Shown here: positions 6,319-39,961 of the stretch, piece by piece
How the letters are laid out: each line of letters starts with the position of its first letter
How positions within the stretch are numbered: the first letter of the stretch is position 1
IMG/VR virus record: IMGVR_UViG_3300008113_000264
Location: 1 to 43,537 of that record
Direction: 5' to 3' (one strand)
DNA from: a virus
DNA length: 43,537 nucleotides
Notes under the pieces: model-generated
Told to the model about the DNA's origin: nothing
What the model saw: only the letters and a program-made list of their open reading frames with translations
Databases searched by the model: none
Position numbers and translations under genes: made by a program

Positions 6319-9300
6319 TTAAAAGTTATTTTCAACGGCAAGACATATTTCACCACTCATTGATATCAATTTTGACATATCAGCAAATGATATAAACGCT
6401 CTACCTTGTTTACCCCAACTTCTTCCCCAACTATTTTTAATTCTAAATTGTTGTTTAACTAAATCAACCCCATTTATAACATATGCGTGTCCACCAACAA
6501 TTCTACCCGTCGCTTTGATAAGTCCATTAGTGTCAGGGTAAAACATATTTTGATACCAATATGTACCCACAACAACAGGTCCTAAATTATAAACAGTGTT
6601 AATTAATGTGTTAACATCAAATGCCCAATAGTATGATTTAATTTTACCTGTATTTAATAAATACTTAGCACCCGCTCTGACCGAAGTTCCCGCATAATTT
6701 TCACCTGGCCACTCATCAATTTTTTGAGCTTCATTATAGATTAATGTTGGATTAATTATTGGTGGAGTATTATCGTGAGTAATCGGTCCGTCTTCAATCC
6801 AATGTGCCCAAGCATATCCAACACATTGTGGTGTATTACCTTGATTACCCCACCATTCTTCATCACCCCAATATTTAAATGTGGGTAAACCTGAAGTTGA
6901 TGGTGTTGGTGTTATACTTTTTGTTGGTGTAGGTGTATTAGGTGGATTTTTTGTTGGTGTAGGTGTTGGTATAGGTTTTTTAGTTTTAGATGGTGTAGGA
7001 GTTGGTCTTGGTCTTATAAAAATTTTTGTCACTATAGGTTTTGCTTGAAATGTAAAATGGTCATTTATTAAAAATTTATCATCCCTAACGTCTCTATGAT
7101 ATAATCTACCTAATAATGTTACGTTAGGTTGTAATTGACCGTTTTGTAATACATATGTAAAATCGTTAGGTAAACAAACTTCAGTTGAACAATCGGGACA
7201 ATCAGGATTATACATCCTAAATGTATTTTTTAATAAATTAAAGTTATGTTTTACTTCGGGTGCTGATAATGGTGACACATACATTCTAAATTGTGATATA
7301 CCACCCTCAAATGTTCCAGCAAAATTTTCGTTAATTAATATATTAGTATTTAACTCGCTAAATGTAGTGCCCGATAAATCTTTACTTGATAAACACTCAG
7401 GGTCTTGAATATATGGACCGTTAGGTAATGTTGTTGATGAAAAAGTTAAACTTTCTCTTAACCCTTGAGTACCACCACCCCAAGAAACATTAAATGGAAC
7501 ACCTATTTGTTTTTCTTTATCGGTATTTAAACCTCTTGGAATTACCTCCTCAAAATTTTCAATTACATCAAATAACTTTCCATTTATGTAAATTTTTAAT
7601 CTACCATTTCTATAATTTTTTTCTTTTAACCATTCTTCATTTAATTTAACAAGTTCAACCTCATCAGGTTTTGGAGAACCTGTCTGAGTATATGGAACAG
7701 TAATTAATGATATTGAATTGTGTGATAGTGATTCTAATGTGTGTTTCTCAGTAATATCACCTAAACCACCGCGATAATATAAATCACAATCATTTAACCA
7801 AGTATATCTCTCCCATACGGCATTGAATTGAAACCAATGTTCTTCATTTAAAAATGTTGGATTTAAAGTTTGACATCTATCATAAATCCCTTTTTCGGTA
7901 CAATATGTTGTTACAGTATATCCTGTTTGATATGTAATACCTGTTTTCACACAATTATTAAGTACATCATCAGGACCTACCTGAGACCCATCCAACAATG
8001 ATACGGTAACACAATCACCCGTTAATGTTAACACTCTAACACCAATTTTAGGATTTTTAGGGTCACCACATAATTTAAATGCTAAACAATTTGATAACGA
8101 ATCATCCAAAGGGTTGGACTCGCAAGTATTTTCAATTGATGATTTTGTTATTGTTTCACCAATTAATGTTGTTGTTGTCGTTGTAGTATAATTGGTTGTT
8201 GTCGTTGTAGTATAATTGGTTGTTGTTGTTGTAGTATAATTGGTTGTTGTTGTTGTAGTATAATTGGTTGTTGTTGTTGTGGTGTAATTAGTTGTTGTTA
8301 ATGTTAAATAATTAATTGTTGTTGTTGTGGTATTATAAACTGTACAAGTGTGTATTTTACATTCCCAACCACATGTGTCATATGTTTCAGGTGTACAACC
8401 ACAACCTGAACAAGTCGTAGAACCTGTTTTACAAGTTGGTTCGGTTGAAGGTTTATTACAAATATCACAACCATAGTTTACATGTGGGTCGTGAATGTTA
8501 TTTATAGACCTAGGCGGGTAAACATATATACATCTACTATCAGTATGGGCGGTTGTACAACAAGAACATGTTTGTAGTTTTTCTTGTAACTCAGTTGTTA
8601 CTCTGGTGTACCCTGTTAATCCACTTGGTGAACCATCAGCATGGTGGTAAAATTTATTTTCGGCTCTAGTACCTATATAGAAAAATATGTTTTTATTGTT
8701 AGGGTAAATAACATTTAATGTTGTTTCATCATCCTCCGGTTCATATTCGTCAAATAATCTAGGTTTTAATAAAACTTCAACTGACCATCCTTTATTCATC
8801 CTTTGAGGAAAAATATCATAATCATATCCAAATAATTTATAAAATCCCTGATAAAATCCACCATATAATTCGTGGTAATTCCCTTCATACGGACTATTTT
8901 TACTAACTACTTCATATAAAACAGTTTTATCAAATCCTGAAAATCTAATGTTATTTGAGGTGTATCCCGTAACTTGAAATAATTTTAATCGTCTATCAAA
9001 GTGATATCTATCAAATTTTAACTCGTCATTAAAAAAACCATTTGTAACAGTAATTGATTCTCCTGTCATTGATGTTACAAGACCATTATCAATACCTGTT
9101 AAACCGACATCACATAAAGTTGATGATGAAAAACAAGTTTCAGTTGATGACGAATAGTAATTTTGAGAAACAAAAATATTATTAAAGTTATAATTTTTAT
9201 AATCTAAAGTTAATTTTTGAGACGTTAATGAGTTGTTAATATCAAAGTAAAAAGGTAATCTTTGACCGTAAGTTTGGGCAATAAGATATGGTGAGAATAC

Positions 9301-9414
9301 GACTTCTTGATTAAAGTCTTTCTCATCTGAAGTTAAAGACATATCGTGGGAATCTAAATTAAGTTTTACCCCCCAATTGTTCCCGTAATATTGATTAATA
9401 TTCTGACCTATCAT
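6319..9414 (-). CDS. Large virion protein: LamG-like region plus C-terminal papain-like (C1) cysteine protease
   Basis: 1031 aa. The N-terminal two-thirds look like a LamG-type beta-sandwich ([67 protein letters not shown]). It is split by a Cys-rich insert (about residues 280-355) and an Asn-Tyr/Thr repeat tract. A short Pro-Thr linker (about 800-840) leads to residues 843-1031, which match the C1A papain family. Visible are the oxyanion Gln863 next to catalytic Cys864 ([11 protein letters not shown]), His976 ([11 protein letters not shown]) and Asn994 ([11 protein letters not shown]). There is no obvious propeptide. The ATG at 9414 is preceded by TATTTAT at 10 bases. The gene is first in a minus-strand unit with the LamG and Thr-Pro genes. 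A tail or fibre-borne protease acting on host surface proteins or on its own maturation is inference. The protease assignment itself is strong. Confidence 0.85.
8171..8290 (-). repeat. 24-base tandem repeat encoding NYTTTTTT
   Basis: Five 24-base units. Units 1-2 are identical, units 3-4 are identical, and unit 5 is diverged. Confidence 0.95.
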
Positions 9415-12238: not shown

Positions 12239-13450
12239 ATGAGTAAAATTAAAGTATTAGTAGTACCATCAGACAAAACAGGTGTTGGGAAATTTAGGTC
12301 GGTTGACCCTCACACGTATTTACAGGATATGTATCCTGATGATTTTCACGTAGAAATTGATTACGAACCAAAAATAAATGATTTAAACTATTGGAAACAA
12401 TACCAAATAGTTCATGCTCATAGGTCTATTGGTCACGATTATGATTCAGTACCATTATTGATTAATAAATTAAAACAAATGGGTATTATAGTAATTGTTG
12501 ATATTGATGACTATTGGTTACCAACAAAAGAACATCCTATCCATCAAATAATTGTGCAAAATAAGTTACATACTAAAATTGTTAATAACCTAAAAGCCGC
12601 TGATTATGTAACAACAACTACTAAATTTTTTGCCGATGAAATCAGTAAGTTTAATAAAAATGTTATAGTGTTACCTAACGCGATTAATCCAAATGAACCT
12701 CAATTTAATCAACCAACATTTAAGTCTGATAGGATTAGAATTGGGTGGTTAGGTGGTTCATCACACGAGCATGATTTAAAGTTATTAGAAGGTTTTGTGG
12801 GTAAAAATGTATCAATTAATGATAAAGTTAGATACGTTTTATGTGGTTTTGATACTAGAGGTACGATAACTGAAATCAATAAAGTGACAGGTGAACAAAA
12901 ACAAAGACCGATTAAACCTAACGAAACTGTTTGGTCAAGATACGAAAAAATATTCACTAATAACTATAAAATTCTCAGTGAAGACTACAAAAAATATTTG
13001 TTAGAGTTTGTTGAGAAACCTTATGAATCTGATGAGGATATCTCATATGAAAGAGTATGGACAAAACCAATTAATTCATATGCCGCTAACTATTCAAAAT
13101 TTGATATATCTTTAGCACCAATTAAAGACCATATCTTTAACAGAATGAAATCTCAACTTAAAGTTATTGAAGCGGGATTTTATAAGAAAGCATTAATCGC
13201 CTCAGAAGTTGGTCCCTACACAATTGATTTAAAACATTGTTTAAAGAATGGTGAATTTGTTGATGGTAACGCAATGTTAGTTGATAAATCACGTAATGGT
13301 GATTGGGCGTACTACATCAAAAAATTAGTTAACAACCCTAATCTAATTGAGGATATGGGTAATAGATTATATGAAACGGTTAAGGACGTTTATAGTTTAG
13401 AAACCGTAACTAAAACAAGAGCTGAATTTTACAAATCTTTAATTAAATAA
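12239..13450 (+). CDS. GT-B-fold glycosyltransferase
   Basis: 403 aa, a normal length for a GT-B enzyme. The N-terminal Rossmann half carries VLVVPSDKTGVGKFR and VDIDDYW (residues 87-93), a segment typical of phage and bacterial GT4-like proteins. The linker to the second half runs VIVLPNAIN, then RIRIGWLGGSSHEHDL (about 166-180). The C-terminal half has KSQLKVIEAGFYKKALIAS, the position of the acceptor/donor-binding EX7E-type segment. It would transfer a sugar from a nucleotide donor. The acceptor could be a virion protein, phage DNA or a host surface glycan. The gene is first in a long plus-strand operon and is followed after 2 bases by the exonuclease gene. Fold assignment is firm; donor and acceptor are unknown. 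Confidence 0.8.
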   Translation: MSKIKVLVVPSDKTGVGKFRSVDPHTYLQDMYPDDFHVEIDYEPKINDLNYWKQYQIVHAHRSIGHDYDSVPLLINKLKQMGIIVIVDIDDYWLPTKEHPIHQIIVQNKLHTKIVNNLKAADYVTTTTKFFADEISKFNKNVIVLPNAINPNEPQFNQPTFKSDRIRIGWLGGSSHEHDLKLLEGFVGKNVSINDKVRYVLCGFDTRGTITEINKVTGEQKQRPIKPNETVWSRYEKIFTNNYKILSEDYKKYLLEFVEKPYESDEDISYERVWTKPINSYAANYSKFDISLAPIKDHIFNRMKSQLKVIEAGFYKKALIASEVGPYTIDLKHCLKNGEFVDGNAMLVDKSRNGDWAYYIKKLVNNPNLIEDMGNRLYETVKDVYSLETVTKTRAEFYKSLIK

Positions 13451-13452
13451 AA

Positions 13453-14184
13453 ATGATAAAAATACCATTAACTAAGATTTTATTCTTAGATATTGAAACC
13501 GTTGGGATTGAAAAAGATTACGACACTTGTCTTGAAAAAAGACCTGAGATTGCAAATCAATTTATGAAGTATTATGATTGGTTTCAGAAACGATTTCCTG
13601 AAGACCATATTAATCCACCAAACAATATTGATGAAAGAACTAAAAGGATTAATCAGGTTTTTAGTAAAAGAACCGCATTAGTTCCTGAGTTCGCTAAAAT
13701 TGTTTGTGTTAACGTTCAGTTCGTAACTGATAATGGTGATGTTAAATCACAATCATTTTCAGGTGATGATGAAAAAGAACTATTACGTAATTGTAAAAAA
13801 GTCTTAGATAAATGTTATAAATTGGATTTTCATATCTGTGGTCATAATCTAAAGAATTTTGACATTCCGATGTTGGCAAAACGAATGATAATCAATGGCA
13901 TCTCACCTTCAATTATGTTACCATCATACGATACTAAACCTTGGGAAGTTAAAGCGATTGATACTAAAGATATTTGGCAATACGGTGCCTACACTTCAAT
14001 TGGGTCATTAGATTTGTTATGTACATCATTAGGAGTTCCTTCACCAAAAGAAGGTGACGTGACGGGTGATAAAGTACACACCGCTTATTGGAATGAGGGT
14101 AAATTAAAAGAAATCACTGAATACTGTGAACGTGATGTTAAAGTATTAATTGATATAATCATAAAACTTAAAGAATTGGAATAA
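13453..14184 (+). CDS. PolB-like 3'-5' exonuclease (DnaQ superfamily)
   Basis: All three exonuclease motifs are visible. Exo I is LFLDIET (Asp13, Glu15), Exo II is GHNLKNFDIPML (Asp137) and Exo III is EYCERDVKVL (Tyr224 to Asp228). The layout and 243-aa length fit the stand-alone predicted PolB-like 3'-5' exonuclease family (DNA_pol_B_exo2) rather than a full polymerase. It should remove nucleotides from DNA 3' ends with two metal ions and may serve proofreading, repair or DNA processing in replication. Its ATG lies 2 bases after the preceding stop, and its own stop overlaps the dUTPase start. Confidence 0.88.
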   Translation: MIKIPLTKILFLDIETVGIEKDYDTCLEKRPEIANQFMKYYDWFQKRFPEDHINPPNNIDERTKRINQVFSKRTALVPEFAKIVCVNVQFVTDNGDVKSQSFSGDDEKELLRNCKKVLDKCYKLDFHICGHNLKNFDIPMLAKRMIINGISPSIMLPSYDTKPWEVKAIDTKDIWQYGAYTSIGSLDLLCTSLGVPSPKEGDVTGDKVHTAYWNEGKLKEITEYCERDVKVLIDIIIKLKELE

Positions 14185-15538: not shown

Positions 15539-16204
15539 ATGGAAAATTTACTAGCATTAATAAAAAATTTAGATATTAAAAAAATTGACGAATCTGAATT
15601 AGAAAATTTTTTACCTAATTTAGGTATGAATAATGAAAATTTAAATGAAATGCCAAAACATTTAAGTAAATATTATGGTAAAGGGTTAAAGTTTTGGCAA
15701 TACCCAAATCAATTCAGTAAATATTTAAAATATTTGACTAATAAAAATATAAATTCATATCTTGAGATTGGTTGTCGATGGGGAGGTACATTCATTATAA
15801 CTTCAGAATTTTTAAAATTGAGTAATAGTGATGTGAAATTATTTTGTTGTGATTTAATACCAAAATCTGATGTTTTAACCGAATATTCTAATCATCAAGA
15901 ATATGTTTTTATAAGAACAAGTAGTTTTAAGTTAGATAAAAGTATGATACCTCACAATATTGATTTAATATTAATTGATGGGGACCATACTTATAATGGT
16001 GTTAAAAACGACTTTCAAGTATCTAAACAATTTAACCCTAAGTACGTTGTGTTTCACGATATTAAAAGTTCAGTGTGTCCCGGTGTCGTTAAATTCTGGA
16101 ATGAAATAAAACAAGATTATCCCCATTATGAATTTATAGACCAATATGACAGTGTTAATGGTGATTTCTTAGGGATTGGTGTTATTGAATTGAATAATGA
16201 ATAA
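15539..16204 (+). CDS. Class I SAM-dependent methyltransferase (Methyltransf_24/CmcI-like)
   Basis: 222 aa from the ATG at 15539. The frame is open back to 15491, but this overlaps the preceding gene. Motif I, which binds SAM, is YLEIGCRWGGT (74-84). An acidic strand end follows at LFCCDL, and the characteristic LILIDGDHTYNGVKND (143-158) and VVFHDI segments match the Methyltransf_24 family. Members often methylate sugars or small hydroxyl or amino groups and are frequent in capsule and phage glycan clusters. The setting between a glycosyltransferase and UDP-galactopyranose mutase supports sugar O-methylation, which remains an inference. Its end overlaps the mutase start by 8 bases. Confidence 0.82.
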   Translation: MENLLALIKNLDIKKIDESELENFLPNLGMNNENLNEMPKHLSKYYGKGLKFWQYPNQFSKYLKYLTNKNINSYLEIGCRWGGTFIITSEFLKLSNSDVKLFCCDLIPKSDVLTEYSNHQEYVFIRTSSFKLDKSMIPHNIDLILIDGDHTYNGVKNDFQVSKQFNPKYVVFHDIKSSVCPGVVKFWNEIKQDYPHYEFIDQYDSVNGDFLGIGVIELNNE

Positions 16205-17288
16205 ATACGATTATTTAATTGTTGGGTCAGGATTATTTGGGTCTATATGTGCTCGAGAATTAACCGATTTAGGCCTTAAATGTTTAGTCGTTGAAAAACG
16301 AGAACATATTGGTGGTAATTGTTATACTAAAAAAATTGAAGGTATTGATGTTCATGTTTACGGAGCACACATCTTTCATACTTCAAATAAAGAAACTTGG
16401 GATTATGTTAATAGATTCGTGGAGTTTAATAATTACAGACATCACGTTATTGGTAATTATAAAAACACTTTATATTCATTACCATTTAATATGTTCACGT
16501 TTAATAAACTTTGGGGTGTTAACACACCTGAAGAGGCTAAAAATAAAATTGATAGTCAAAAGTTTGAAGGTGTACCCACAAATTTAGAAGAACAAGCCTT
16601 ATCTATTGTGGGTGAGGATGTTTATAATAAACTAATAAAAGGGTATACTGAAAAACAATGGATGAAATCCCCCAAAGAATTACCATCATCAATAATCAAA
16701 CGATTACCTGTTAGATTCACATTTGATAATAATTATTTTTTTGACACATATCAGGGAATCCCTAAAAATGGTTATACTGAATTATTTGAGAAGTTATTAG
16801 ATAATATTGAAGTTAAACTTAATACTGACTTTTTTGATGACGTTGATTACTATAAGTCAATATCATCACATATAATATATACAGGACCAATTGATAGATA
16901 TTTTAATTATTCGTTAGGTAATTTGGAATATAGACCATTGAGATTTGAAACCGAAATTGTTGACACCGAAAATTATCAAGGACATTCGGTTATCAATTTT
17001 ACCGATATTGATGTACCATATACTAGAATAATTGAACATAAACATTTTAATGTTTCCGAATCAAAAAAAACGGTCATTACTAAAGAATACCCAATAGAAT
17101 GGGATATCAATCAAGAACCTTATTATCCGATAAACGATAAAGAAAATCAGTTACTATACGAAAAATATAAACAATTAAGTTTAAAAGAAACTAATGTATT
17201 TTTTGGTGGTAGACTTGCAGAATATAAATATTATGATATGAATCAAGTGGTTGACTCGGCACTTGAGTTTATTCATAACATTTCATAA
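16197..17288 (+). CDS. glf: UDP-galactopyranose mutase
   Basis: 363 aa, the normal length for bacterial enzymes. The FAD Rossmann motif is LIVGSGLFGSICARELTDLG, followed by VVEKREHIGGNCYT. The family signature VHVYGAHIFHTSN comes next, then YSLPFNMFTFNKLWG, GYTEKQWMKSPKELP and the C-terminal GGRLAEYKYYDMNQVVDSAL that closes on FAD. The enzyme interconverts UDP-galactopyranose and UDP-galactofuranose in the cytoplasm using reduced FAD. UDP-Galf is then used by galactofuranosyltransferases, so one or more neighbouring glycosyltransferases may be Galf-specific. No truncation or missing motif is apparent. Confidence 0.95.
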   Translation: MNKYDYLIVGSGLFGSICARELTDLGLKCLVVEKREHIGGNCYTKKIEGIDVHVYGAHIFHTSNKETWDYVNRFVEFNNYRHHVIGNYKNTLYSLPFNMFTFNKLWGVNTPEEAKNKIDSQKFEGVPTNLEEQALSIVGEDVYNKLIKGYTEKQWMKSPKELPSSIIKRLPVRFTFDNNYFFDTYQGIPKNGYTELFEKLLDNIEVKLNTDFFDDVDYYKSISSHIIYTGPIDRYFNYSLGNLEYRPLRFETEIVDTENYQGHSVINFTDIDVPYTRIIEHKHFNVSESKKTVITKEYPIEWDINQEPYYPINDKENQLLYEKYKQLSLKETNVFFGGRLAEYKYYDMNQVVDSALEFIHNIS

Positions 17289-17296
17289 ATTTAAGT

Positions 17297-18805
17297 ATGA
17301 TAACAATAATTTACTCAACACATAAAGATAAAGAATACAATGATAAGTTTAACGACCATCTTGTATTAACATCAGGACTTCAATGGGTACAAGTTTTACC
17401 CTATGTAAATCATAACGAATACTCATTATCCGAACTTTACAATAAAGGTATTAAAGAATCAAAGTACGATATTATAGTTTGTTGTCATAATGATATTAAA
17501 CTTGAGAAAAATTGGGGTAAAAAATTATTAGAAGATTTTTCTAATAACCCCGAATTCGGTATAATAGGAAAGGCTGGAAGTAGTTATTTTCCTGAGTCAG
17601 GAGTTTATTGGGAACGAATGAGTCAGACTATGGTTGGTCAAGTTTATCACCATCCTGAAGGTCAAAAAAAATGGTTGAGTACGTACTCACCAAAATTACC
17701 TTTTATAATACCTGTGGTAACTATTGATGGGTTGTTTATTGCTTTTGATAAAAGTAAGATTAAACATCAATTTGATGAGTCGTATGGTAAATTTCATTTT
17801 TATGACCACGGATTTTGCATTCCTAATTATTTGGACGATGTTAAAATTGGTGTAACATCATCATTTGAAATAACCCACCAATCGGTTGGTCGTCCTAATA
17901 CAGAGTTTTTTGAATCTAAAGAAAGGTTTATTGAAAAATGGGGTAAGTATTTACCATTAGATTTAAAACCTGAAAGTGTATTTGTTCCTGAAATCAAAGA
18001 AAAACCTATTAAAAATATTGGCAAAGTTGCGGTAATAATACCAACAAAAGGTAAAGTTGAAATGTTATTAGATTGTATTAACTCACTCTATAAACATTGT
18101 AACCCTAATTTATTTGATGTGTTTATTGCCGATACAGGGTCAAGTGATAGTGAAAAACAATTGATTAAAGATAATACACAACATATTGGTAACATCAATT
18201 TAATTGAATATGATTATTACAATTTCGCTAAAATAAATAATGATGTTGTAAAAAACCATATATCTGACAAATATGAATTTTTATTATTTTGTAATAACGA
18301 TATTAAAATACTTAATAATGTGATTTATGGAATGTTAAAAATTTTTAAAGAAAAAAATAAAGTAGGGACTGTTGGGTGTAGATTACATTTTGAGGATAAT
18401 ACAATTCAACACGACAGTATCTTACTTGTTTTAGATAAAACTAAAAATCTTGGACTCACACATAGAAGTCTTGGTAATTATTTTAATTACCATATAAACA
18501 CTTCAGAAGTACCGGGGTCTACCGCAGCATTAATGATGATACGTAAAAAAATATTTATGTCTTGTGGTATGTTTAATGAAAATTATGAAACTTGTTTTGA
18601 AGATGTTGAACTTAATTTAAAATGTTTAACTCTTGGGTTAAAAAATTATTATGACGGTTCGTTAGTTTCGTATCACTTGGAAAGTCAGACAAGAAATGAC
18701 AATGATGACACTATGGAAAAACAAGATAATGATTATGTTAAAGGATTATTACCGTTTATTAATTTAAATTTTGATAAAATTAATAAACAAATAATGGTTT
18801 TATAA
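17297..18805 (+). CDS. Two-domain GT-A glycosyltransferase
   Basis: 502 aa with two GT-A-like units. The N-terminal unit (about 1-225) starts MITIIYSTHKDKEYN and has DIIVCCHNDIKLEKNWGKKL, with the metal-site region as HND. It also has TIDGLFIAFDKSK and resembles the Glyco_tranf_2_5 group. The C-terminal unit (about 240-500) is a GT2 enzyme with VAVIIPTKGKVEMLLDCINS, FLLFCNNDIKILN, PGSTAALMMIRKKIF and FNENYETCFEDVELNLKC. This arrangement is like rhamnosyl or galactofuranosyl transferases that extend a glycan. It follows glf by 8 bases, so Galf transfer is a natural guess but unproven. The preceding and following spacing suggest that it ends one segment of the operon. Confidence 0.82.
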   Translation: MITIIYSTHKDKEYNDKFNDHLVLTSGLQWVQVLPYVNHNEYSLSELYNKGIKESKYDIIVCCHNDIKLEKNWGKKLLEDFSNNPEFGIIGKAGSSYFPESGVYWERMSQTMVGQVYHHPEGQKKWLSTYSPKLPFIIPVVTIDGLFIAFDKSKIKHQFDESYGKFHFYDHGFCIPNYLDDVKIGVTSSFEITHQSVGRPNTEFFESKERFIEKWGKYLPLDLKPESVFVPEIKEKPIKNIGKVAVIIPTKGKVEMLLDCINSLYKHCNPNLFDVFIADTGSSDSEKQLIKDNTQHIGNINLIEYDYYNFAKINNDVVKNHISDKYEFLLFCNNDIKILNNVIYGMLKIFKEKNKVGTVGCRLHFEDNTIQHDSILLVLDKTKNLGLTHRSLGNYFNYHINTSEVPGSTAALMMIRKKIFMSCGMFNENYETCFEDVELNLKCLTLGLKNYYDGSLVSYHLESQTRNDNDDTMEKQDNDYVKGLLPFINLNFDKINKQIMVL

Positions 18806-29426: not shown

Positions 29427-29429
29427 TAA

Positions 29430-29460
29430 ATAACCCCATCTAAACAGTGGGGTTATTTTA
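29430..29460. terminator. Bidirectional terminator between convergent genes
   Basis: Stem AACCCCA / TGGGGTT with a nine-base loop. It is flanked by A/T-rich runs on both sides and overlaps the last codons of the minus-strand gene. Confidence 0.75.
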
Positions 29461-30365: not shown

Positions 30366-30394
30366 AAAAAGGTCAGATTTCTCTGACCTTTTAA
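30365..30394. terminator. Bidirectional terminator
   Basis: Stem AAAAGGTCAGA / TCTGACCTTTT with a four-base loop; A run on the left and T run on the right. It serves the 75-aa gene and the convergent major capsid gene. Confidence 0.85.
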
Positions 30395-30413: not shown

Positions 30414-30545
30414 TTATCTCAATTCTCTTAAATCAAATGTACGAACACCATCAACTGTGATTCTCGCGTAGAAACGGTTGTTAACCATTTTCTTAGCGTA
30501 TCTCGTCATTATACCTTTGATTGGTGTAAAGTTGAATGGGTTGTA
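30414..30545 (-). pseudogene. Detached C-terminus of the major capsid protein
   Basis: This frame lies -1 relative to the capsid frame and encodes YNPFNFTPIKGIMTRYAKKM and then NNRFYARITVDGVRTFDLRELR before a TAA at 30414-30416. It is the expected end of a gp23-like capsid protein (compare FQPxxGFKTRYG in T4-like capsids). It has no start codon. The segment that should link it to LLDTG in the upstream frame (a strand with the YAPY pattern in relatives) is absent. So it appears disconnected by a frame-changing deletion; a single-base error is a simpler alternative. Confidence 0.8.
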
Positions 30546-32173
30546 CCTGTGTCTAACAATGATGTTCCTTTGTGACCGATTAACACTGTGTTTGGTGGGA
30601 AGTAAGGGTCACGGTATACTTGGTATCTACCAGATAATGTACCGATTCTCTCAATACCCATGTTGAATTGGTCTTGTTCAGGAGACGCGTTAGATACGTG
30701 GAAGTATTCTAAATCGTCAAAGATTGCAGAAATTTCAGAAGAAACAACAATCCAGTTAGCTCCACCTCTCAATGTTGATTTGTGAATTTGTGCTGATAAT
30801 TGGTTAATAGCCGTAATCAACGTTTGATTCCAATCTTTTTGAGTGTATGAAGTAGCCAAACCTGATACTCTTCTCCATCCGTTGTAATCCCAACGTAAGT
30901 TCCAAGCCGCTCCTTTACGTAAATCTCTCAAGATTTCACGGTCAATCTCAGCTGCAACTTGTTCAGACAATAACGCAGTTAACTCAGCTTCCGCATCAAT
31001 GTTGTGGAATGCTGCAACGTCTTGTGCTAATTCAGGAGACCATTGTGCTCTTAGTTTTCTTTCAGTAACAGATACTGTAACAGAATCTAAATCAAAAGAA
31101 ACCTCACCAATTCTGTCTTCAAACTCTAAGTTTGCATAACGTTTAAACACTGCAGTAAATGATGTTGCAGTATCCGCAGATGTAATAGTTGTACCTGTGT
31201 AACCATCTAAAGTACCTTCACCACAAGTCGCACATACAGGACAAGATAAGTCAACTTCTAAATAGATGTAACCTCTAGCGTCACAAATATTTTTAAATGA
31301 ACCACCGTTACCTGAAGATGGGAATGTAGTTTGAATTGTATCACCATATTTAACGATACCTGAACCATATTGTTGAGTTACAACTCTAAATAATAATGGT
31401 GTCGTTTCAGTTAATCCTGAAAAACATGCTGACGCTGCGTCAATATCTAAACCAGCACCTTTAGTGATAACTAAATCAGATAAGAAAGTTTCTGTATCCA
31501 TTTCGTTTCCATCAGGACCGATTAATTTTCCAGCACCATCTTCGTTAAATCCTGACATTTTGATGATAATTTTTCTTACAGTTTCACCATCATATTCAGT
31601 AGTTGCATCAACTAATGAACTACCTGACCATACTTGTACTAAAGTGTCGGCAGTTACCGCAGTAAATGCACCTTTAGAATAGTCAAATAAACCTGCCGGG
31701 TCTAAACCTGGTTCAGAACCTTCGTAAAATAAATCATAAAGATTTTTTTGGTAAGCGTCTGCACCTGAGTAACCTTCGTTTGGTGTTGCAGGACCGTTAG
31801 GTGCTCCGTAAGGTCTGTAATGTTCACCATTGTCATAACCTTGGATTTTAGGTACGAAGTAGAACAATTTACCGATAGGTAAGTTCATTGCTTGTACAGA
31901 AACGATATCGTTCGCTAACAATTTAGAGAATACACGTCTAACGATAGGGAAAACCACAGTTTCAAACGCTCCGTTTGAACCTTCTGATGTTGCCTCGTTA
32001 ATTAAGAAAGACGCTTGGTTTTCGTATAATTGTGCTACGTTTTCTTTTAAGTGACCTTTAAGACCGTCTAAGAATCCTAATTTGTCCCATTTGTTAATTG
32101 TATCTTCTTTGATAACTTTAAGGTGTTTTAAACCGATGTTACCAACAAGACCTGATTCTAATAATGCTCCCAT
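30509..32173 (-). CDS. Major capsid protein (T4 gp23-like), out of frame at its C-terminus
   Basis: 554 aa as read. The order of features follows T4-like capsids: an N-terminal helical part, FPIVRRVFSKLLANDIVSVQ, MNLPIGKLFYFVPK, then a long beta-rich centre. Next come SFDLDSVTVSVTERKLRAQW, AELTALLSEQVAAEIDREIL and VSSEISAIFDDLEY, and then RYQVYRDPYFPPNTVLIGHK and GTSLLDTG. After that the frame runs into a short unrelated tail (TTHSTLHQSKV) and stops. It forms the head shell after prohead cleavage. The real C-terminus lies in the -1 frame at 30414-30545. Gene order (scaffold directly upstream, then protease and portal further upstream) supports the assignment. No TATTTAT is visible, only an A-rich leader with AAATAAATAAC. 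Confidence 0.92.
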   Translation of the reverse strand: MGALLESGLVGNIGLKHLKVIKEDTINKWDKLGFLDGLKGHLKENVAQLYENQASFLINEATSEGSNGAFETVVFPIVRRVFSKLLANDIVSVQAMNLPIGKLFYFVPKIQGYDNGEHYRPYGAPNGPATPNEGYSGADAYQKNLYDLFYEGSEPGLDPAGLFDYSKGAFTAVTADTLVQVWSGSSLVDATTEYDGETVRKIIIKMSGFNEDGAGKLIGPDGNEMDTETFLSDLVITKGAGLDIDAASACFSGLTETTPLLFRVVTQQYGSGIVKYGDTIQTTFPSSGNGGSFKNICDARGYIYLEVDLSCPVCATCGEGTLDGYTGTTITSADTATSFTAVFKRYANLEFEDRIGEVSFDLDSVTVSVTERKLRAQWSPELAQDVAAFHNIDAEAELTALLSEQVAAEIDREILRDLRKGAAWNLRWDYNGWRRVSGLATSYTQKDWNQTLITAINQLSAQIHKSTLRGGANWIVVSSEISAIFDDLEYFHVSNASPEQDQFNMGIERIGTLSGRYQVYRDPYFPPNTVLIGHKGTSLLDTGTTHSTLHQSKV

Positions 32174-33837: not shown

Positions 33838-33868
33838 AAAAAAGGAGGGTGTTTATCCCTCCTTTGGT
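33838..33868 (-). terminator. Rho-independent terminator of the DUF4494/protease unit
   Basis: Stem AAAGGAGGG / CCCTCCTTT with a seven-base loop. On the minus strand the T run follows the stem, so it ends transcription coming from the prohead protease and DUF4494 genes. Confidence 0.8.
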
Positions 33869-34110: not shown

Positions 34111-34833
34111 TTATTTTCCCAAATAATCGGACAATCTTTTCATTAAGTCAAGGGATTTATTACCCGATTCACCAACATGTCTGTCAACCGACATTCTTTT
34201 TTCTTCCTCAAGGTTTTCCTCATACATATGTTTATCATCTTTATTTAAGAATAAATAAGCACCTGGTGTTGACGGTGAAGATACTAAGTCAAAACAAATT
34301 AACTCAAAGTCATCTTGTACTTCGTTTTGTTCACCAACTTTTTTAAGTGAACCAACACCTCTTGATGATATACCTAACGTAACACCTTGTCTTAAATAAT
34401 TTGCAGCCATATCTCCTTTAGTTGATACAATACCTCTTTCGTGGAAACCTGGACTAGTTAACAATTTAAGTTTACCCATTAAAGTATTACCTTCCCACCA
34501 TACTTCAGTAATAAGGTGTGATACTCTATCTAAATCAATCAATGATGATTCGGGGTGATTTAATTCAGAAAGTGATGTTCCTTTCTCAATCATTTTTTTG
34601 TAGTTGTCCGCTTCACGTTTTAAAATACGTTCAGGATATACACGACCATTTCTGTTGGGTGTATTATATTTTTGTAGAACTGCATAAAATTCAAACGGTT
34701 TAGAGTGGTCTAAGAAATTATTAGACTCTAAAATATATGAATTGTGTCCTGTTTTTGGTGAAATGAAACCTGCATCGTATTCAATTAAAATACCTTTGCC
34801 GGTCTCATTTGGATTTAAAATTCGTAAACTCAT
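34111..34833 (-). CDS. Prohead core protease (T4 gp21-like, peptidase family S77)
   Basis: 240 aa. The family pattern is clear. RNGRVYPERIL near residue 61 is followed by SELNHPESSLIDLDRVSH with catalytic His93, LMGKLKLLTSPG, and TLGISSRGVGSL with the nucleophile at Ser156 or Ser157. The acidic member is probably in ELICFDLVSSPS (Asp182). It cleaves the scaffold, capsid and other core proteins during prohead maturation, normally after its own activation. Its place between portal-region genes and the scaffold gene is as in T4. A TATTTAT motif lies 15 bases before the ATG. Confidence 0.92.
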   Translation of the reverse strand: MSLRILNPNETGKGILIEYDAGFISPKTGHNSYILESNNFLDHSKPFEFYAVLQKYNTPNRNGRVYPERILKREADNYKKMIEKGTSLSELNHPESSLIDLDRVSHLITEVWWEGNTLMGKLKLLTSPGFHERGIVSTKGDMAANYLRQGVTLGISSRGVGSLKKVGEQNEVQDDFELICFDLVSSPSTPGAYLFLNKDDKHMYEENLEEEKRMSVDRHVGESGNKSLDLMKRLSDYLGK

Positions 34834-34855: not shown

Positions 34856-35317
34856 TTAAACATATTCAAATAATGACGTTTCTTTTTTTGTTTTAGATAG
34901 ATAAAAATTAAAATAAGTATTTGATTTGAAGTTATCAAAGAAAATTTGCGATGTAATCTCTTTAAGAATGTCCTTGAGTTTTTTATCTTTAAAATCAATT
35001 GTTTCATCAGTTAGATAAAAATTAATTTCAAGATTCATAAATGATTTTTTGTTTAATGATAATCCGCTAGACCTTAAATCTAAATCAACAATAAACTTAT
35101 CATCAAATATTTTACGATTAATTTTGTCGTAGACAGAATGTTTTATGGCTCTACTTAGGTTTAAAACAACTCTTGACCAATTTTCAGAATCTTGTATGGG
35201 TTCAACCCAAGTTTGGATGTTTAGATAAACAGATTTTAAATTAACCGAATCCACTGTTCCGTATAATACTTTTGCGGTTTTAAAACCTTGTATTTTACAC
35301 GTTTTCCCTTTTTTCAT
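34856..35317 (-). CDS. Unknown protein in head block (153 aa)
   Basis: Alternating beta strands and helices: KVLYGTVDSVNLKSVYLNIQ, WVEPIQDSENWSRVV, KFIVDLDLRSSGLSLN and LEINFYLTD. No catalytic residues are apparent. The family is not recognised. It lies between the gp67/68-position gene and the protease gene, and its ATG is preceded by a 96-base divergent gap shared with the bS21 gene. It may be a small head or assembly protein. Confidence 0.6.
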   Translation of the reverse strand: MKKGKTCKIQGFKTAKVLYGTVDSVNLKSVYLNIQTWVEPIQDSENWSRVVLNLSRAIKHSVYDKINRKIFDDKFIVDLDLRSSGLSLNKKSFMNLEINFYLTDETIDFKDKKLKDILKEITSQIFFDNFKSNTYFNFYLSKTKKETSLFEYV

Positions 35318-35361
35318 TATTTTTCATACGATATAATGTTTATTTTTCATAATAGTAAGTA

Positions 35362-35380
35362 TATTTACAATAAGAGTCAA
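35362..35380 (+). promoter_or_regulatory. Possible promoter element of the bS21 gene
   Basis: TATATTTACAATAAGAGT-like segment located about 35-50 bases before the bS21 ATG. It closely resembles the element upstream of the PhoH gene (18809). A promoter role is inferred from that similarity. Confidence 0.3.
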
Positions 35381-35413: not shown

Positions 35414-35605
35414 ATGATAATAGTTAAGGTTGATAAAGAAAAAAATATTGAAAAAGCATTAAAACAATATAAAAGTAAGATTATTAAGACAAGACAAATG
35501 TCCAAGTTAAATGACGGAAAGGTATATATCAAACCTTCTGTAAAAAAAAGAAACGTACTTAACAATGCTAAGTACGTTCAAAAAAATTATAAAAATATAG
35601 ATTAA
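35414..35605 (+). CDS. rpsU: Ribosomal protein bS21
   Basis: 63 aa, the normal size of small bS21 proteins. The start MIIVKVDKEKNIEKALKQYK matches the family beginning (V+V, ENxxxALKRFK pattern). The segment VYIKPSVKKRNVLNNAKYVQ matches the flavobacterial type of C-terminal half (KPSVxKR, then AxYxQ). Tyr54 corresponds to the residue which, in Flavobacterium ribosomes, helps hold the anti-Shine-Dalgarno tail in the bS21/bS18/bS6 pocket. Phage bS21 probably replaces or supplements host bS21 on 30S subunits. It is the only plus-strand gene in the head block. No Shine-Dalgarno precedes the ATG. Confidence 0.9.
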   Translation: MIIVKVDKEKNIEKALKQYKSKIIKTRQMSKLNDGKVYIKPSVKKRNVLNNAKYVQKNYKNID

Positions 35606-36322
35606 TTATAAGTTTTCGTTTAAACTTTTTAGTTTGTAATAATTTAACTTATCGTATTTTTCAGTTTCTAATTTAGTGATAGTTTCATTAATTCTTTGAC
35701 CCACTTCATAATCAGTATTCTCACGACGAATACCTGTTAATTTCTTAATAACAGATTCTTTAATAGTTGAATATTTTGGTTCTAACTCACTATCATCAAC
35801 TGATAGTAAAGTTTTCAACTCCTTACGGTCAGATTCGGATAAAGTTTCAACATAATCAGTTAAACTTTTATTAGCCATATTAACAATTGTAGTCAATGGT
35901 AAATTAACGGATTCTTTAACAACTTCAGGTTGTTTTTTTAATGATTCTGATAATGTTTTTTTACTTCTTATTTTATGTTCTAATGTTAATACGTTATCTG
36001 AAAATAAAGTATCAACAACTTCATATTGATTTTCAGTTTTAGTATTTTTAACCCACTCTAACAAATTTTTTAAATCAGTTGGTTTTATTTTATTTACAGT
36101 ATTTTCATAAATAACGATAGACTCATTAATGTAGTCATTAACAATAGATTCATTTAATCCTTTATTAGATGTTAATTCATCATATAAATAAAACAATTTA
36201 TTAATGTTTTTATTATTTAAAACATATTTTTTAAAATTAGACATTTCAGTTTTAAACGTCCCATTTTTATATGACTCAATTAATATTGAGTCTATTTTAG
36301 ATTTAATAATACCAAATTTCAT
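35606..36322 (-). CDS. Probable prohead core or head-assembly protein at gp67/68 position (238 aa)
   Basis: Almost entirely helical, Lys/Glu/Asn/Ser-rich: SIVIYENTVNKIKPTDLKNL, TLSESLKKQPEVVKES and SDRKELKTLLSVDDSELEPK. No enzymatic motif is visible. It lies between the portal gene and the protease region, where T4 has the small core proteins gp67 and gp68. Helical composition fits a core component that is cleaved during maturation. Its stop abuts the bS21 stop with no gap. A TATTTAT motif lies 15 bases before the ATG. Confidence 0.55.
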   Translation of the reverse strand: MKFGIIKSKIDSILIESYKNGTFKTEMSNFKKYVLNNKNINKLFYLYDELTSNKGLNESIVNDYINESIVIYENTVNKIKPTDLKNLLEWVKNTKTENQYEVVDTLFSDNVLTLEHKIRSKKTLSESLKKQPEVVKESVNLPLTTIVNMANKSLTDYVETLSESDRKELKTLLSVDDSELEPKYSTIKESVIKKLTGIRRENTDYEVGQRINETITKLETEKYDKLNYYKLKSLNENL

Positions 36323-36344: not shown

Positions 36345-38204
36345 TCAATCTTTTAGAAGTTTGCTTAAACTACGTTCAATATCACCTAAAGAATTTTTAC
36401 CTTTAGATAAATCAATGTATGTTTCCTCATTTAATAAATCTTCATTTTCTATTAAGATTCTTAAATTATCTCTTTTAACGGATTCAGGAGTCACACCTGC
36501 CTCACCACCAGGTTCAGGTCCTGTTGGTGGTGGAGGGGCCATTCCTCCTCCCATGTCACCTCCCATGTCACCTCCCATATCACCTCCCGGAGGTGGTGGT
36601 GGTGTCGCTCCCGCTGCGGCGGTTTGAGTTCCACCTGATTTACTACTATATAATTTGTCAATATTATCAAACATACCTGTATGTGTGATAATTGTTGCGG
36701 TATTTGTTAATTCAGCACCAACGGCTTTTTCAATACGTTGTTGTTGTAAATCAAGTTTAATATCTTCATCTGAAAATCCTAAGATATGTTTTTTCGCCCA
36801 ACTTATTGATGTTGGTGCGATACCCTCAATTGCGGTAACTGCATCTTTATATAGTAACATTTTTTCTTTCCAAACATCAATTTTTAATAAATCAGCCTGA
36901 CTTGAAGGGTTAGTTAATGTTAAAGTAAAATTGGATAACTCATCTTCAAATCCTAATAAGAATAAATGAATAATAGCAATCTTATTTAATTCACCAATAA
37001 TACTTTTTTGTATTTTATTAATTGTTCTTGCAAAACGAATATCCATTAATGATAAATCTTTACCACCACCTACAGGTTCTTCAAACCCTAAGAATGCTTT
37101 AGGAACACGTAACGCAGTCAATAGTTTCTTTTGGATATATTCAATATCGGCAATTTCACCTAAGTTTGCGGCTCCTGCCAAAGTATCAATTGGATTTGGT
37201 GCTGCCGGGTCACGAACAGGGATAAAGTAATCTTGGTCAACCGCCATTTGGTTAAACCTCATATCTACGTTACCTGTTTTAGAATCTACTACTTGGTCAC
37301 GTTTGAATTTGTTCGCAACACGTTGTACGTATGGCTCAACATCTTTGTCATCCATATTACCTACGAAAATTTTAAATACTCTACGTTCAGGTGCTCTTGA
37401 CGTTCTATAAATTAACATCGCATCTTCAGCCAACATTAACTGTTTCCAAATACGTCTTGCTTTTTCTAACATAGAAGTACCATACGGTAATTTTCTATCA
37501 TCACCTAATAGACGAAAATGTGCGACTTCCCATGAATTGAATTCCATATCTTTAGCCTTCCATTTAAATCTAAGACCTTTGTTTTCCGCAGGTTCTGAGA
37601 TATTTTGTTCTCTGGCTGGCATCCCACGTTCAAAACGTTCAATTTCAATATTCGGTAATTGCATACAACCAACAATACCTTTTTCAGCGTCCAATTTTAA
37701 ATAAACAAAATTATCACCATACTTACAAGTATTTCTAATCCACATAGGTAAGTTAATGTTGATATCTAACGCATTATTAAATAAATCGGTTAATACTGAT
37801 TTAATACGTTTTGATTCTGAGTATATTTGTAACATGTGACCATCTTCATCAACTGTTGTTGACTCTTCAGAGTATATGTCTAAGGCTGCCGAAATTTCAG
37901 GTGTAAACTCCATTGACTCATAATCATAGAATGATGCCAAACGTGTTGGTTCATAATAAACCGCTTGAGTATATAAATTATTTTCAATCTTTGTCCATTG
38001 TGTAGATAGAAAATAACTTTGTTGTGCTTGTAATTTTTCCTGTTCGTATTCTTGTTTTGATGTAGTTTTTAATAATTCTTTCTTATCAAAATTATACGTT
38101 GGGTAATCCTGATTTAACAATGAATTTGGTCCAAATGTTTGGGATAATCGTTGCCAAACCGTTAGGTTATTATTATTGTTATTATTGTTATTATTTTGTT
38201 CCAT
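36345..38204 (-). CDS. Portal protein (T4 gp20-like)
   Basis: 619 aa, somewhat longer than T4 gp20. Core family features: EFTPEISAALDIYSEESTT near the start, LPMWIRNTCKYGDNFVYLKL, FNSWEVAHFRLLGDDRKLPY with GTSMLEKARRIWKQLMLAED, RRVFKIFVGN, DYFIPVRDPAAPNPIDTLAG, and the C-terminal-domain helix MDIRFARTINKIQKSIIGEL. It forms the dodecameric vertex ring for DNA entry and head-tail joining. Odd features are an N-terminal run of ten Asn after MEQ and a C-terminal Pro/Gly tail with a repeated MGGD unit (about residues 530-560). A TATTTAT motif lies 41 bases before the ATG, farther than at other sites. Confidence 0.92.
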   Translation of the reverse strand: MEQNNNNNNNNNNLTVWQRLSQTFGPNSLLNQDYPTYNFDKKELLKTTSKQEYEQEKLQAQQSYFLSTQWTKIENNLYTQAVYYEPTRLASFYDYESMEFTPEISAALDIYSEESTTVDEDGHMLQIYSESKRIKSVLTDLFNNALDININLPMWIRNTCKYGDNFVYLKLDAEKGIVGCMQLPNIEIERFERGMPAREQNISEPAENKGLRFKWKAKDMEFNSWEVAHFRLLGDDRKLPYGTSMLEKARRIWKQLMLAEDAMLIYRTSRAPERRVFKIFVGNMDDKDVEPYVQRVANKFKRDQVVDSKTGNVDMRFNQMAVDQDYFIPVRDPAAPNPIDTLAGAANLGEIADIEYIQKKLLTALRVPKAFLGFEEPVGGGKDLSLMDIRFARTINKIQKSIIGELNKIAIIHLFLLGFEDELSNFTLTLTNPSSQADLLKIDVWKEKMLLYKDAVTAIEGIAPTSISWAKKHILGFSDEDIKLDLQQQRIEKAVGAELTNTATIITHTGMFDNIDKLYSSKSGGTQTAAAGATPPPPPGGDMGGDMGGDMGGGMAPPPPTGPEPGGEAGVTPESVKRDNLRILIENEDLLNEETYIDLSKGKNSLGDIERSLSKLLKD

Positions 38205-38252: not shown

Positions 38253-38714
38253 CTAACGAACTCCAAATAACCACCCATACTTATTGTAGTCTTCTCTTGA
38301 AACTTGTTGACTATTAAATTGATTCATTCTTTCTTGATAATATGGAATAACCGGGTCAAAATTTATTATTTCTTTTGGTGATTCATTATTATTAACTGAC
38401 CAAGATTCCATCATAGCCTTGGCTTGTTCTGTTACTTTAGTTAATTTTGAAAATGATGTTTCACCAACATAAGTCGCCATAGCAATTGACATAAGTAAGT
38501 CATCATGTCTTCCTTTTTGGTGGTCAGGTCTTCCGTTTATATAAACAAAAGAATCCATTTCATTGTATAAACGATGACTATAAATTTTGAACTCGTGTCT
38601 CATTGCCTCTTCATATGACGCAATAATTTGAACACGTTTATTGTTAAAATTTATTCCGGGAATTTTTTCAGCAGATTTTGGGTTGTATTTCCAAGTATTA
38701 CCTAAATCTTCATC
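38253..38714 (-). pseudogene. Terminase large subunit, C-terminal nuclease segment (separated by frame change)
   Basis: Open frame without its own convincing start. An internal ATG exists at 38603, but the homology begins upstream. It encodes EDLGNTWKYNPKSAEKIPG, then FNNKRVQIIASYEEAMRHEF, KIYSHRLYNEMDSFVYINGR and PDHQKGRHDDLLMSIAMATY. This is the terminal part of the T4-like terminase nuclease; HDD holds the last catalytic Asp. It is the direct continuation of the 419-aa fragment in the -1 frame. A stretch of about 20 residues between DITGGM and DEDLG, present in relatives (a helix plus strand after the second acidic motif), is missing. Confidence 0.85.
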
Positions 38715-39961
38715 CCCCCTGTGATATCCACAACGATAAATGCTGAATACATATTAGCCCATTTATAACAAACTTCCGCCATTGTATCAGGTGGTAATTT
38801 ACCGACAAATTCCGCTACTTGTTCTCTCGTATCAAAATCAACAACTTGAAATGAACTAAAGTCTTCACTGTCACCTCTACTAACGTCAACCCCCATTATA
38901 TATTTGTGACCAACAACAGGTTCTTTCCATATCCATAATTGGTTACCTAACATTTTATTTTGAGGTTCTTTAAGATAATTTTCTTTTATCTTAGACATTA
39001 ATTTAGAATCAAATACATTATCCCCTGAACCAAGGAAATTACACTCTAACTCTTGAGAAACTTTACGTTTATCGTATTTAAGTTTCTTAACCATTTTTTC
39101 AAACCAATCTGAACAAGGTTTGTAACCATTACTAATTAATTCTTTGGCTATGTCAAAATTTCTATCTTCAAATTCTATCTCAGACCAACTAACTATTTTT
39201 TCAGGTCCGTATTCTTCTTTGTTTAATAGATAATGAATTGCATCATCGGTTTTAACAAAATATAAGTCTTTAGTATAACGAGGGTCACGATACCAATACA
39301 TTTCTGTAATTTTGAAATCGTTCATACCTCTTAACGCTTGGTCGTAAATTTCGTAATAGATTGGGTCATTACCGTTAGGTGTTGATACAACAATTACCTT
39401 ACCACCCGTTGATAACGACGCCATACACGCAGACCAGAAATCACTATCGGCTTCAATAAATGCCGCCTCATCAAATACAAGTATTGTTGGGGTAAATCCA
39501 CGTAAGGCATCTTTTGACGTTGCCACCGCTTTAACTTCACAACCATTTGTTAATTTATAATGTTTTGTAGATTTCTTATTTGGGTCTATTTGAACATCAG
39601 TCCAAGACGGCCACTGAGTAACAAAGGCACGAATTTTATTGGCCATTTCTATTGAGGTGTCCAATTTATTCGCAATAATAAGAATTTTCTCAGGTTTTGT
39701 TTTTTTAGCGAATGCTAATTTTTTAGATATCCAAGCCGAGGTTACTGTTGATACACCTGCCTGACGATATTTTAATGCAATGTTCTCATTATAATTTTCA
39801 TAATCCTCTAATAATGTAATTTGGTCGGGGAATAATTCTAATGGAACATATTTTGATACTGTATTATCGTATGTTTGTAAGTAAGTACTTAGAGCATATG
39901 TTGTATCTTTCATACATTTCACATACTCTAATAGTACTTGTTCTCTAGTTAAATTTGACAT
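38702..39961 (-). CDS. Terminase large subunit, ATPase and first half of nuclease (T4 gp17-like)
   Basis: 419 aa up to a TAG. The ATPase is complete in outline: a Walker A-like YRQAGVST (65-72), Walker B ILVFDEAAF (Asp164, Glu165), and the coupling motif VVSTPNGNDP (191-200). The RNase H-type nuclease begins at YIMGVDVSRGD with Asp359 and continues to IVVDITGGM, where it breaks off. It is the motor that packages DNA into the prohead and cuts it. The break lies at a run of six G. After it the frame should shift by -1 to join 38253-38714. The ATG is 3 bases after the upstream gene's stop. As it stands the nuclease is not intact. Confidence 0.92.
   Translation of the reverse strand: MSNLTREQVLLEYVKCMKDTTYALSTYLQTYDNTVSKYVPLELFPDQITLLEDYENYNENIALKYRQAGVSTVTSAWISKKLAFAKKTKPEKILIIANKLDTSIEMANKIRAFVTQWPSWTDVQIDPNKKSTKHYKLTNGCEVKAVATSKDALRGFTPTILVFDEAAFIEADSDFWSACMASLSTGGKVIVVSTPNGNDPIYYEIYDQALRGMNDFKITEMYWYRDPRYTKDLYFVKTDDAIHYLLNKEEYGPEKIVSWSEIEFEDRNFDIAKELISNGYKPCSDWFEKMVKKLKYDKRKVSQELECNFLGSGDNVFDSKLMSKIKENYLKEPQNKMLGNQLWIWKEPVVGHKYIMGVDVSRGDSEDFSSFQVVDFDTREQVAEFVGKLPPDTMAEVCYKWANMYSAFIVVDITGGMKI

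Follow-up and report, generated by a model that had tools for sequence, protein, structure and literature searches.

A reversed bS21 gene in a phage head-gene block that probably doubles as an antisense terminator

A gene for the ribosomal protein bS21 lies backwards within the head-gene block of a virus from IMG/VR, and its stop codon directly adjoins that of the convergent gene CN, with zero intergenic nucleotides. This raises the question of how such a gene is accommodated in the block, and what the conservation of its C-terminal part reflects. The window analyzed here is the whole stretch of 43,537 nucleotides (record IMGVR_UViG_3300008113_000264). It is a 43.5-kb fragment; contigs that carry relatives are as long as 282-318 kb. 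The following features are relevant:

30509..32173, minus strand: major capsid protein gene
34111..34833, minus strand: prohead (head maturation) protease gene
34856..35317, minus strand: g153, the first minus-strand gene past bS21
35352..35380, minus strand: TTGACT-17-TACTAT, promoter-like, preceding g153 within a candidate leader block conserved in relatives
35414..35605, plus strand: phage bS21 gene, 63 amino acids, ATG start, from an ORF with profile and structure-sequence matches
35606..36322, minus strand: CN, convergent hypothetical gene, stop codon 26 nt before the hairpin described below
36345..38204, minus strand: portal protein gene, an upstream gene of the transcript that the putative terminator would end
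38702..39961, minus strand: large terminase (TerL) gene

The product of the 63-codon frame matched Ribosomal_S21 of Pfam (PF01165; 33 bits, cut-off 27, E=4.8e-8) and PHROG 21469, 'ribosomal protein S21'. It aligned with Flavobacterium johnsoniae bS21 (PDB 7jil) at E=6e-8 and, because residues 1-57 align without a gap, its Tyr54 corresponds to Tyr54 of F. johnsoniae. A score of 22.3 with the NCBIfam equivalog TIGR00030, below the cut-off of 28.95, marks it as a divergent protein. In a tree built from a short alignment it groups with bS21 sequences, phage and Flavobacterium proteins forming two separate groups. A preliminary description of this DNA had recognized a reversed, phage-encoded bS21 inside the head-gene block and a retained Tyr54; matches, alignment, and gene map agree with both. 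The flavobacterial character that it ascribed to the C-terminal half holds in outline (S42, R46, A52, Y54, Q56), with departures from the host consensus at residues 47-50. Residue 54 is Tyr in 82, His in 17, and Phe in one of 100 distinct relatives of the phage protein, and close relatives of the window's bS21 carry His54 in place of Tyr54. A search of an annotated phage collection for bS21 returned weak matches only, nearly all in huge uncultured phages.

The opposite strand encodes TerL, portal protein, the hypothetical CN, g153, protease, and major capsid protein, and this block is common to relatives of the window with a TerL at least 75% identical. The bS21 arrangement, including Tyr54, is already published for Bacteroidetes jumbo phages, of which the window is a further member (Chen et al., 2022; PMC9723584). 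That paper describes the layout and discusses the aromatic residue 54 and SD-poor hosts. CN occupies the position given there for bS21_CN/fam498 and is a candidate equivalent. Elsewhere in the window, surface-sugar genes comprise a UDP-galactopyranose mutase gene (PF03275, E=7e-83) beside glycosyltransferase genes (16197-17288, 12239-13450, and 17297-18805, all on the plus strand). A PolB-type 3'-5' exonuclease domain (PF10108) forms a separate small gene (13453-14184, plus strand), and a 1031-aa protein (6319-9414, minus strand) has a C-terminal papain-like peptidase domain (PF00112 weak; phrog_16701, E=1e-49).

Leaders of the window's genes show no excess of Shine-Dalgarno (SD) matches (mean longest match 3.39 nt, against 3.31 nt in shuffled leaders), as had been stated before. 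In 94% of phage bS21 leaders, the SD match does not exceed 5 nt. Host rpsU genes (77 distinct ones from Flavobacterium) were collected with the F. johnsoniae bS21 sequence as query, and a match of at least 6 nt, mostly 8 nt, precedes 77/77 of them; the genome contig collection queried with the phage bS21 protein gave no relatives. In Flavobacterium, Tyr54 of bS21 stacks on A1534 of the 16S tail, and the SD of rpsU drives autoregulation when ribosomes lack bS21 (PMC9976891). Since the phage bS21 mRNA is SD-less, it should escape this SD-dependent control. Judged by its leader, the phage gene has probably shed the autoregulation of rpsU, which suggests how phage bS21 could be made outside it. 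The preliminary description had overlooked both this missing strong SD of the host rpsU type and the antisense stem to which the following paragraphs turn.

Codons 46-56 of the phage gene, Tyr54 included, form an inverted repeat that is near-perfect over codons 47-55:

35541..35550, minus strand: U-tract following the hairpin (CTTTTTTTTA), the antisense reading of Lys/Arg codons 43-46
35551..35579, minus strand: antisense hairpin of 13 pairs with a 3-nt loop, bS21 codons 46-56, RNA MFE -14.5 kcal/mol
35573..35575, plus strand: Tyr54 codon TAC, pairing with the Val48 codon GTA (35555-35557) in the antisense hairpin

The minus-strand RNA reads GAACGUACUUAGC AUU GUUAAGUACGUUU, then CUUUUUUUU. Its stem is AT-rich, and its MFE lies at z -6.3 relative to dinucleotide shuffles. 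The hairpin begins 26 nt past the CN stop codon, and most related hairpins begin 25-44 nt past it; in E. coli, full efficiency was reached by terminators separated from the stop codon by more than 27 nt (PMC4824070). A stable hairpin, an immediate U-tract, and a place downstream of a stop codon, the criteria of an intrinsic terminator, are thus found together at this site. The rest of the window's coding DNA contains three antisense terminator hits in 37.5 kb. Terminator-like hairpins also occur at other gene boundaries (29428-29458, 30367-30392, and 33841-33865), some in both directions, and intrinsic termination seems to be normal in this phage.

Other signals were sought around the gene. 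A search after the bS21 stop revealed no strong plus-strand terminator. Rfam gave nothing at gathering threshold in the window, and nothing up to E=1 around the bS21 locus. A possible operator, the inverted repeat ATTTACAAT..ATTGTAAAT upstream of bS21, was dismissed because it is poorly conserved in relatives.

The repeat could mean little for transcription. The gene might encode just an ordinary phage bS21 that replaces host bS21 and favors SD-less phage mRNAs, the inverted repeat being a by-product of its amino acids and of Lys-/AT-rich coding. Such a reading can point to the published precedent for the whole arrangement and for Tyr54, and to antisense U-tracts that come free from Lys codons; Lys codons yield no U-tracts on the plus strand, so that a plus-strand control is uninformative. 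What speaks against it is the choice of codons. IMG/VR was scanned with an amino-acid pattern degenerate at every codon, and therefore blind to pairing, and of the 30 distinct coding sequences (CDS) on the 49 contigs recovered, 30 pair. Together with neighbor-based samples, 31 distinct CDS of this type are at hand. Codons 48 and 54 are complementary in 31/31 of them (GTG-CAC 18, GTA-TAC 12, ATG-CAT 1), and Tyr/His54 changes only together with codon 48. N47 is invariably AAC, a codon share of 28% in the window's usage, V55 is invariably GTT, and the rare codons AGC, CTC, and AAG are used where they pair. Paired-position counts, set against per-sequence synonymous-codon nulls, gave p values from 0.006 down to <5e-5.

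Compensatory change points in the same direction. Of all cells, 97.2% are paired, versus 25-46% in slid controls, and two pairs changed on both sides in 8 cells (0/500 shuffles), although kinship inflates such cell counts and they overstate independent events, the flanking-gene trees requiring only about three Tyr/His switches as judged by eye. The covariation score is 0.233, against 0.175 +- 0.013 in shuffled and <=0.093 in slid alignments. In this clade, residues N47-V48-L49-N/S50 equal the reverse-complement reading of codons A52-K53-Y54-V55, in place of the host type A-Q-I-Q. As far as comparison of these genes can tell, the hairpin structure is maintained by selection.

These alignments also bear on the strand. 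The plus-strand version of the hairpin folds too, more weakly (-10.2 versus -14.5 kcal/mol antisense), and lies near the bS21 3' end, where it might act in the bS21 mRNA itself, e.g. in 3'-end protection or ribosome slowing, and not as an antisense terminator. Yet the U-tract is found on the minus strand only, and non-Watson-Crick positions comprise 17 G.U in minus-strand RNA (A.C on plus) versus three of the reverse kind, with four mismatches; taken as independent events and counted by eye, about six wobble deviations favor the minus strand versus one the reverse. A role in the plus-strand mRNA appears decidedly unlikely, also in view of the contigs lacking bS21 considered below.

Neighbor-based sampling through the protease and CN widened the comparison to 122 distinct phage bS21 CDS, scored for a hairpin plus U-tract against a null in which synonymous codons were shuffled within each gene. 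Antisense terminators inside the CDS were predicted at <=-7 kcal/mol in 57% (shuffled: 14%), at <=-9 kcal/mol in 52% (4.6%), and at <=-11 kcal/mol in 41% (1.6%). The codons occupied vary by clade (46-56, 39-48, 22-30, 41-53, and 51-62, plus one case each at 28-38 and 15-21). Compensatory change is also seen in the 39-48 class, and class E (codons 51-62) is less convincing. Convergent stops lie at most 10 nt apart in 118/122, usually overlapping by four nt, which leaves no intergenic room, and 250 nt scanned on either side of bS21 in the same sample contained no terminator at <=-8 kcal/mol. Roughly 43% of the related genes lack a strong antisense terminator both within the gene and close by; either the arrangement can do without one, or other clades end the transcript by different means. 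An unrelated bS21 phage carries a two-way terminator that overlaps the last bS21 codons and the stop (bS21 nt 174-198). In host Flavobacterium rpsU, antisense terminators at <=-9 kcal/mol were predicted in 0/77. That the positions differ between clades, and that none as strong occurs in host rpsU, is a further difficulty for a mere by-product of bS21 coding.

Contigs that have lost bS21 allow the two layers to be viewed apart. In L235, a single metagenomic contig, bS21 is reduced to roughly its final 20 codons and has no start. The hairpin is perfect, its U-tract is longer, and it is joined directly to the promoter-like leader block of g153, which is also kept; the neighbors of L235 in the flanking-gene tree carry intact bS21. 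In L238, an AAG to TAG change at codon 51, within the loop, cuts bS21 before residue 54 and leaves the stem perfect; this stop codon may be a sequencing error. L083, a near twin of L238, has an intact gene. L213-L217 carry the convergent gene but lack bS21, and a canonical GC-rich terminator follows 25 nt after CN; PF01165 is absent from the L213-L217 records searched, one of them of 282 kb. L238 and L213-L217 are metagenomic contigs as well, and L236 was excluded as a possible contig-end artefact. By these examples the putative terminator is retained or replaced when the bS21 protein is lost. Such a CN homologue without bS21 contrasts with the published absence of CN in two bS21-less outgroup phages.

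Persistence of the hairpin after loss of the ORF (L235) is hard to reconcile with the repeat as a by-product of coding, which together with the synonymous-codon nulls, the rare codons found only where they pair, and the 31/31 complementarity of codons 48 and 54 makes an ordinary bS21 and nothing else an unlikely explanation. The same contig, and the CN-directed terminator of L213-L217 in the absence of bS21, also speak against action in the plus-strand mRNA. Perfect inverted repeats can furthermore be protein sites, and the outer arms AACGT..ACGTT are nearly invariant in this clade, which would suit an operator, packaging, or repressor site in the DNA. Strand-asymmetric wobbles and an attached U-tract are at odds with such a site, as are the unrelated sequences that other clades have at different codons and the GC-rich terminator that takes its place in L213-L217, and a DNA-binding site is thus highly improbable.

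It is probable that the locus carries two overlapping functions in the same DNA, a phage bS21 on the plus strand and an intrinsic terminator on the minus strand. RNA polymerase coming from portal and CN would pass the CN stop, about 26 nt, the 13-bp hairpin, and the U-tract, and stop, so that the portal-CN transcript would end within bS21, in the 3' third of this oppositely oriented gene. The terminator would be written into bS21 since there is no space between the two convergent genes. It would split the portal-side transcript from the g153-protease-capsid transcript, with g153, protease, scaffold, and capsid genes transcribed from their own start behind the conserved promoter-like block. bS21 itself would be transcribed in the opposite direction, and termination would keep antisense RNA off most of it. 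Phage bS21 most likely enters the host 30S late in infection, keeping the aromatic residue 54 of Bacteroidota, which by analogy with F. johnsoniae probably still contacts the 16S tail.

The preliminary description had linked Tyr54 to the anti-SD pocket. The residue is indeed kept, but overlap with the stem and the relatives with His54 weaken a reading in terms of the pocket alone: codon 54 forms half of terminator base pairs, and its conservation here is therefore not readable as protein constraint alone. The fuller proposal, that the reversed bS21 doubles as the terminator of the portal-side head operon, and that antisense terminators arose repeatedly at different codons, so that ribosome-contacting residues, including the Tyr/His54 stacking on the anti-SD, are partly dictated by the hairpin on the other strand, is the reading we lean towards with some reserve. 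It would offer an account of how the head block accommodates a gene in reverse orientation, and a concrete alternative reason for the conservation of part of the phage bS21 C-terminus. The locus would also be a clean case of a protein and a putative antisense terminator that share codons, with natural experiments that lose one and keep the other.

In the jumbo phages of Chen et al. (2022; PMC9723584), a reversed bS21 likewise lies in the TerL-portal-protease-MCP block, flanked by a hypothetical gene on each side, with Tyr54 or another aromatic residue kept and a diverged N-terminal helix. Their genomes are of about 300 kb, from freshwater, and the predicted Bacteroidetes hosts are usually without SD sequences. 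The authors put forward the hypothesis that phage bS21 enters ribosomes late, replaces host bS21, and favors phage mRNAs, and remark that the head-gene block is not one operon, with which the split into two transcripts proposed here is consistent; unlike the present analysis, they mention no terminator or hairpin. They also report similar RNA levels for bS21 and its opposite-strand neighbor; if the reads did not distinguish strands, part of the bS21 signal could come from antisense 3' ends lying within the gene. Unstranded reads over bS21 may thus in part reflect where the convergent transcript ends, a point that concerns the published evidence for late expression. A search limited to open-access literature found no earlier description of an antisense terminator inside a phage bS21 gene. 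Host Flavobacterium rpsU (PMC9976891) shares the bS21 family and Tyr54 with the phage gene and differs in its strong SD and in having no strong antisense terminator. Intrinsic terminators at convergent coding regions (TransTermHP, PMC1852404; tR2 position study, PMC4824070) likewise consist of a hairpin and U-tract past a stop codon, whereas the putative terminator here sits where the neighbor's conserved C-terminal part is encoded, and its evolution is coupled to that of the amino acids, a pattern seen repeatedly and at several codon positions. In the antisense 'backmasking' of degradation motifs in yeast ORFs (PMC5041482), codon choice also informs the RNA of the other strand; there the signal is a statistical enrichment of short protein-binding motifs, in contrast to the one discrete structured terminator proposed here.
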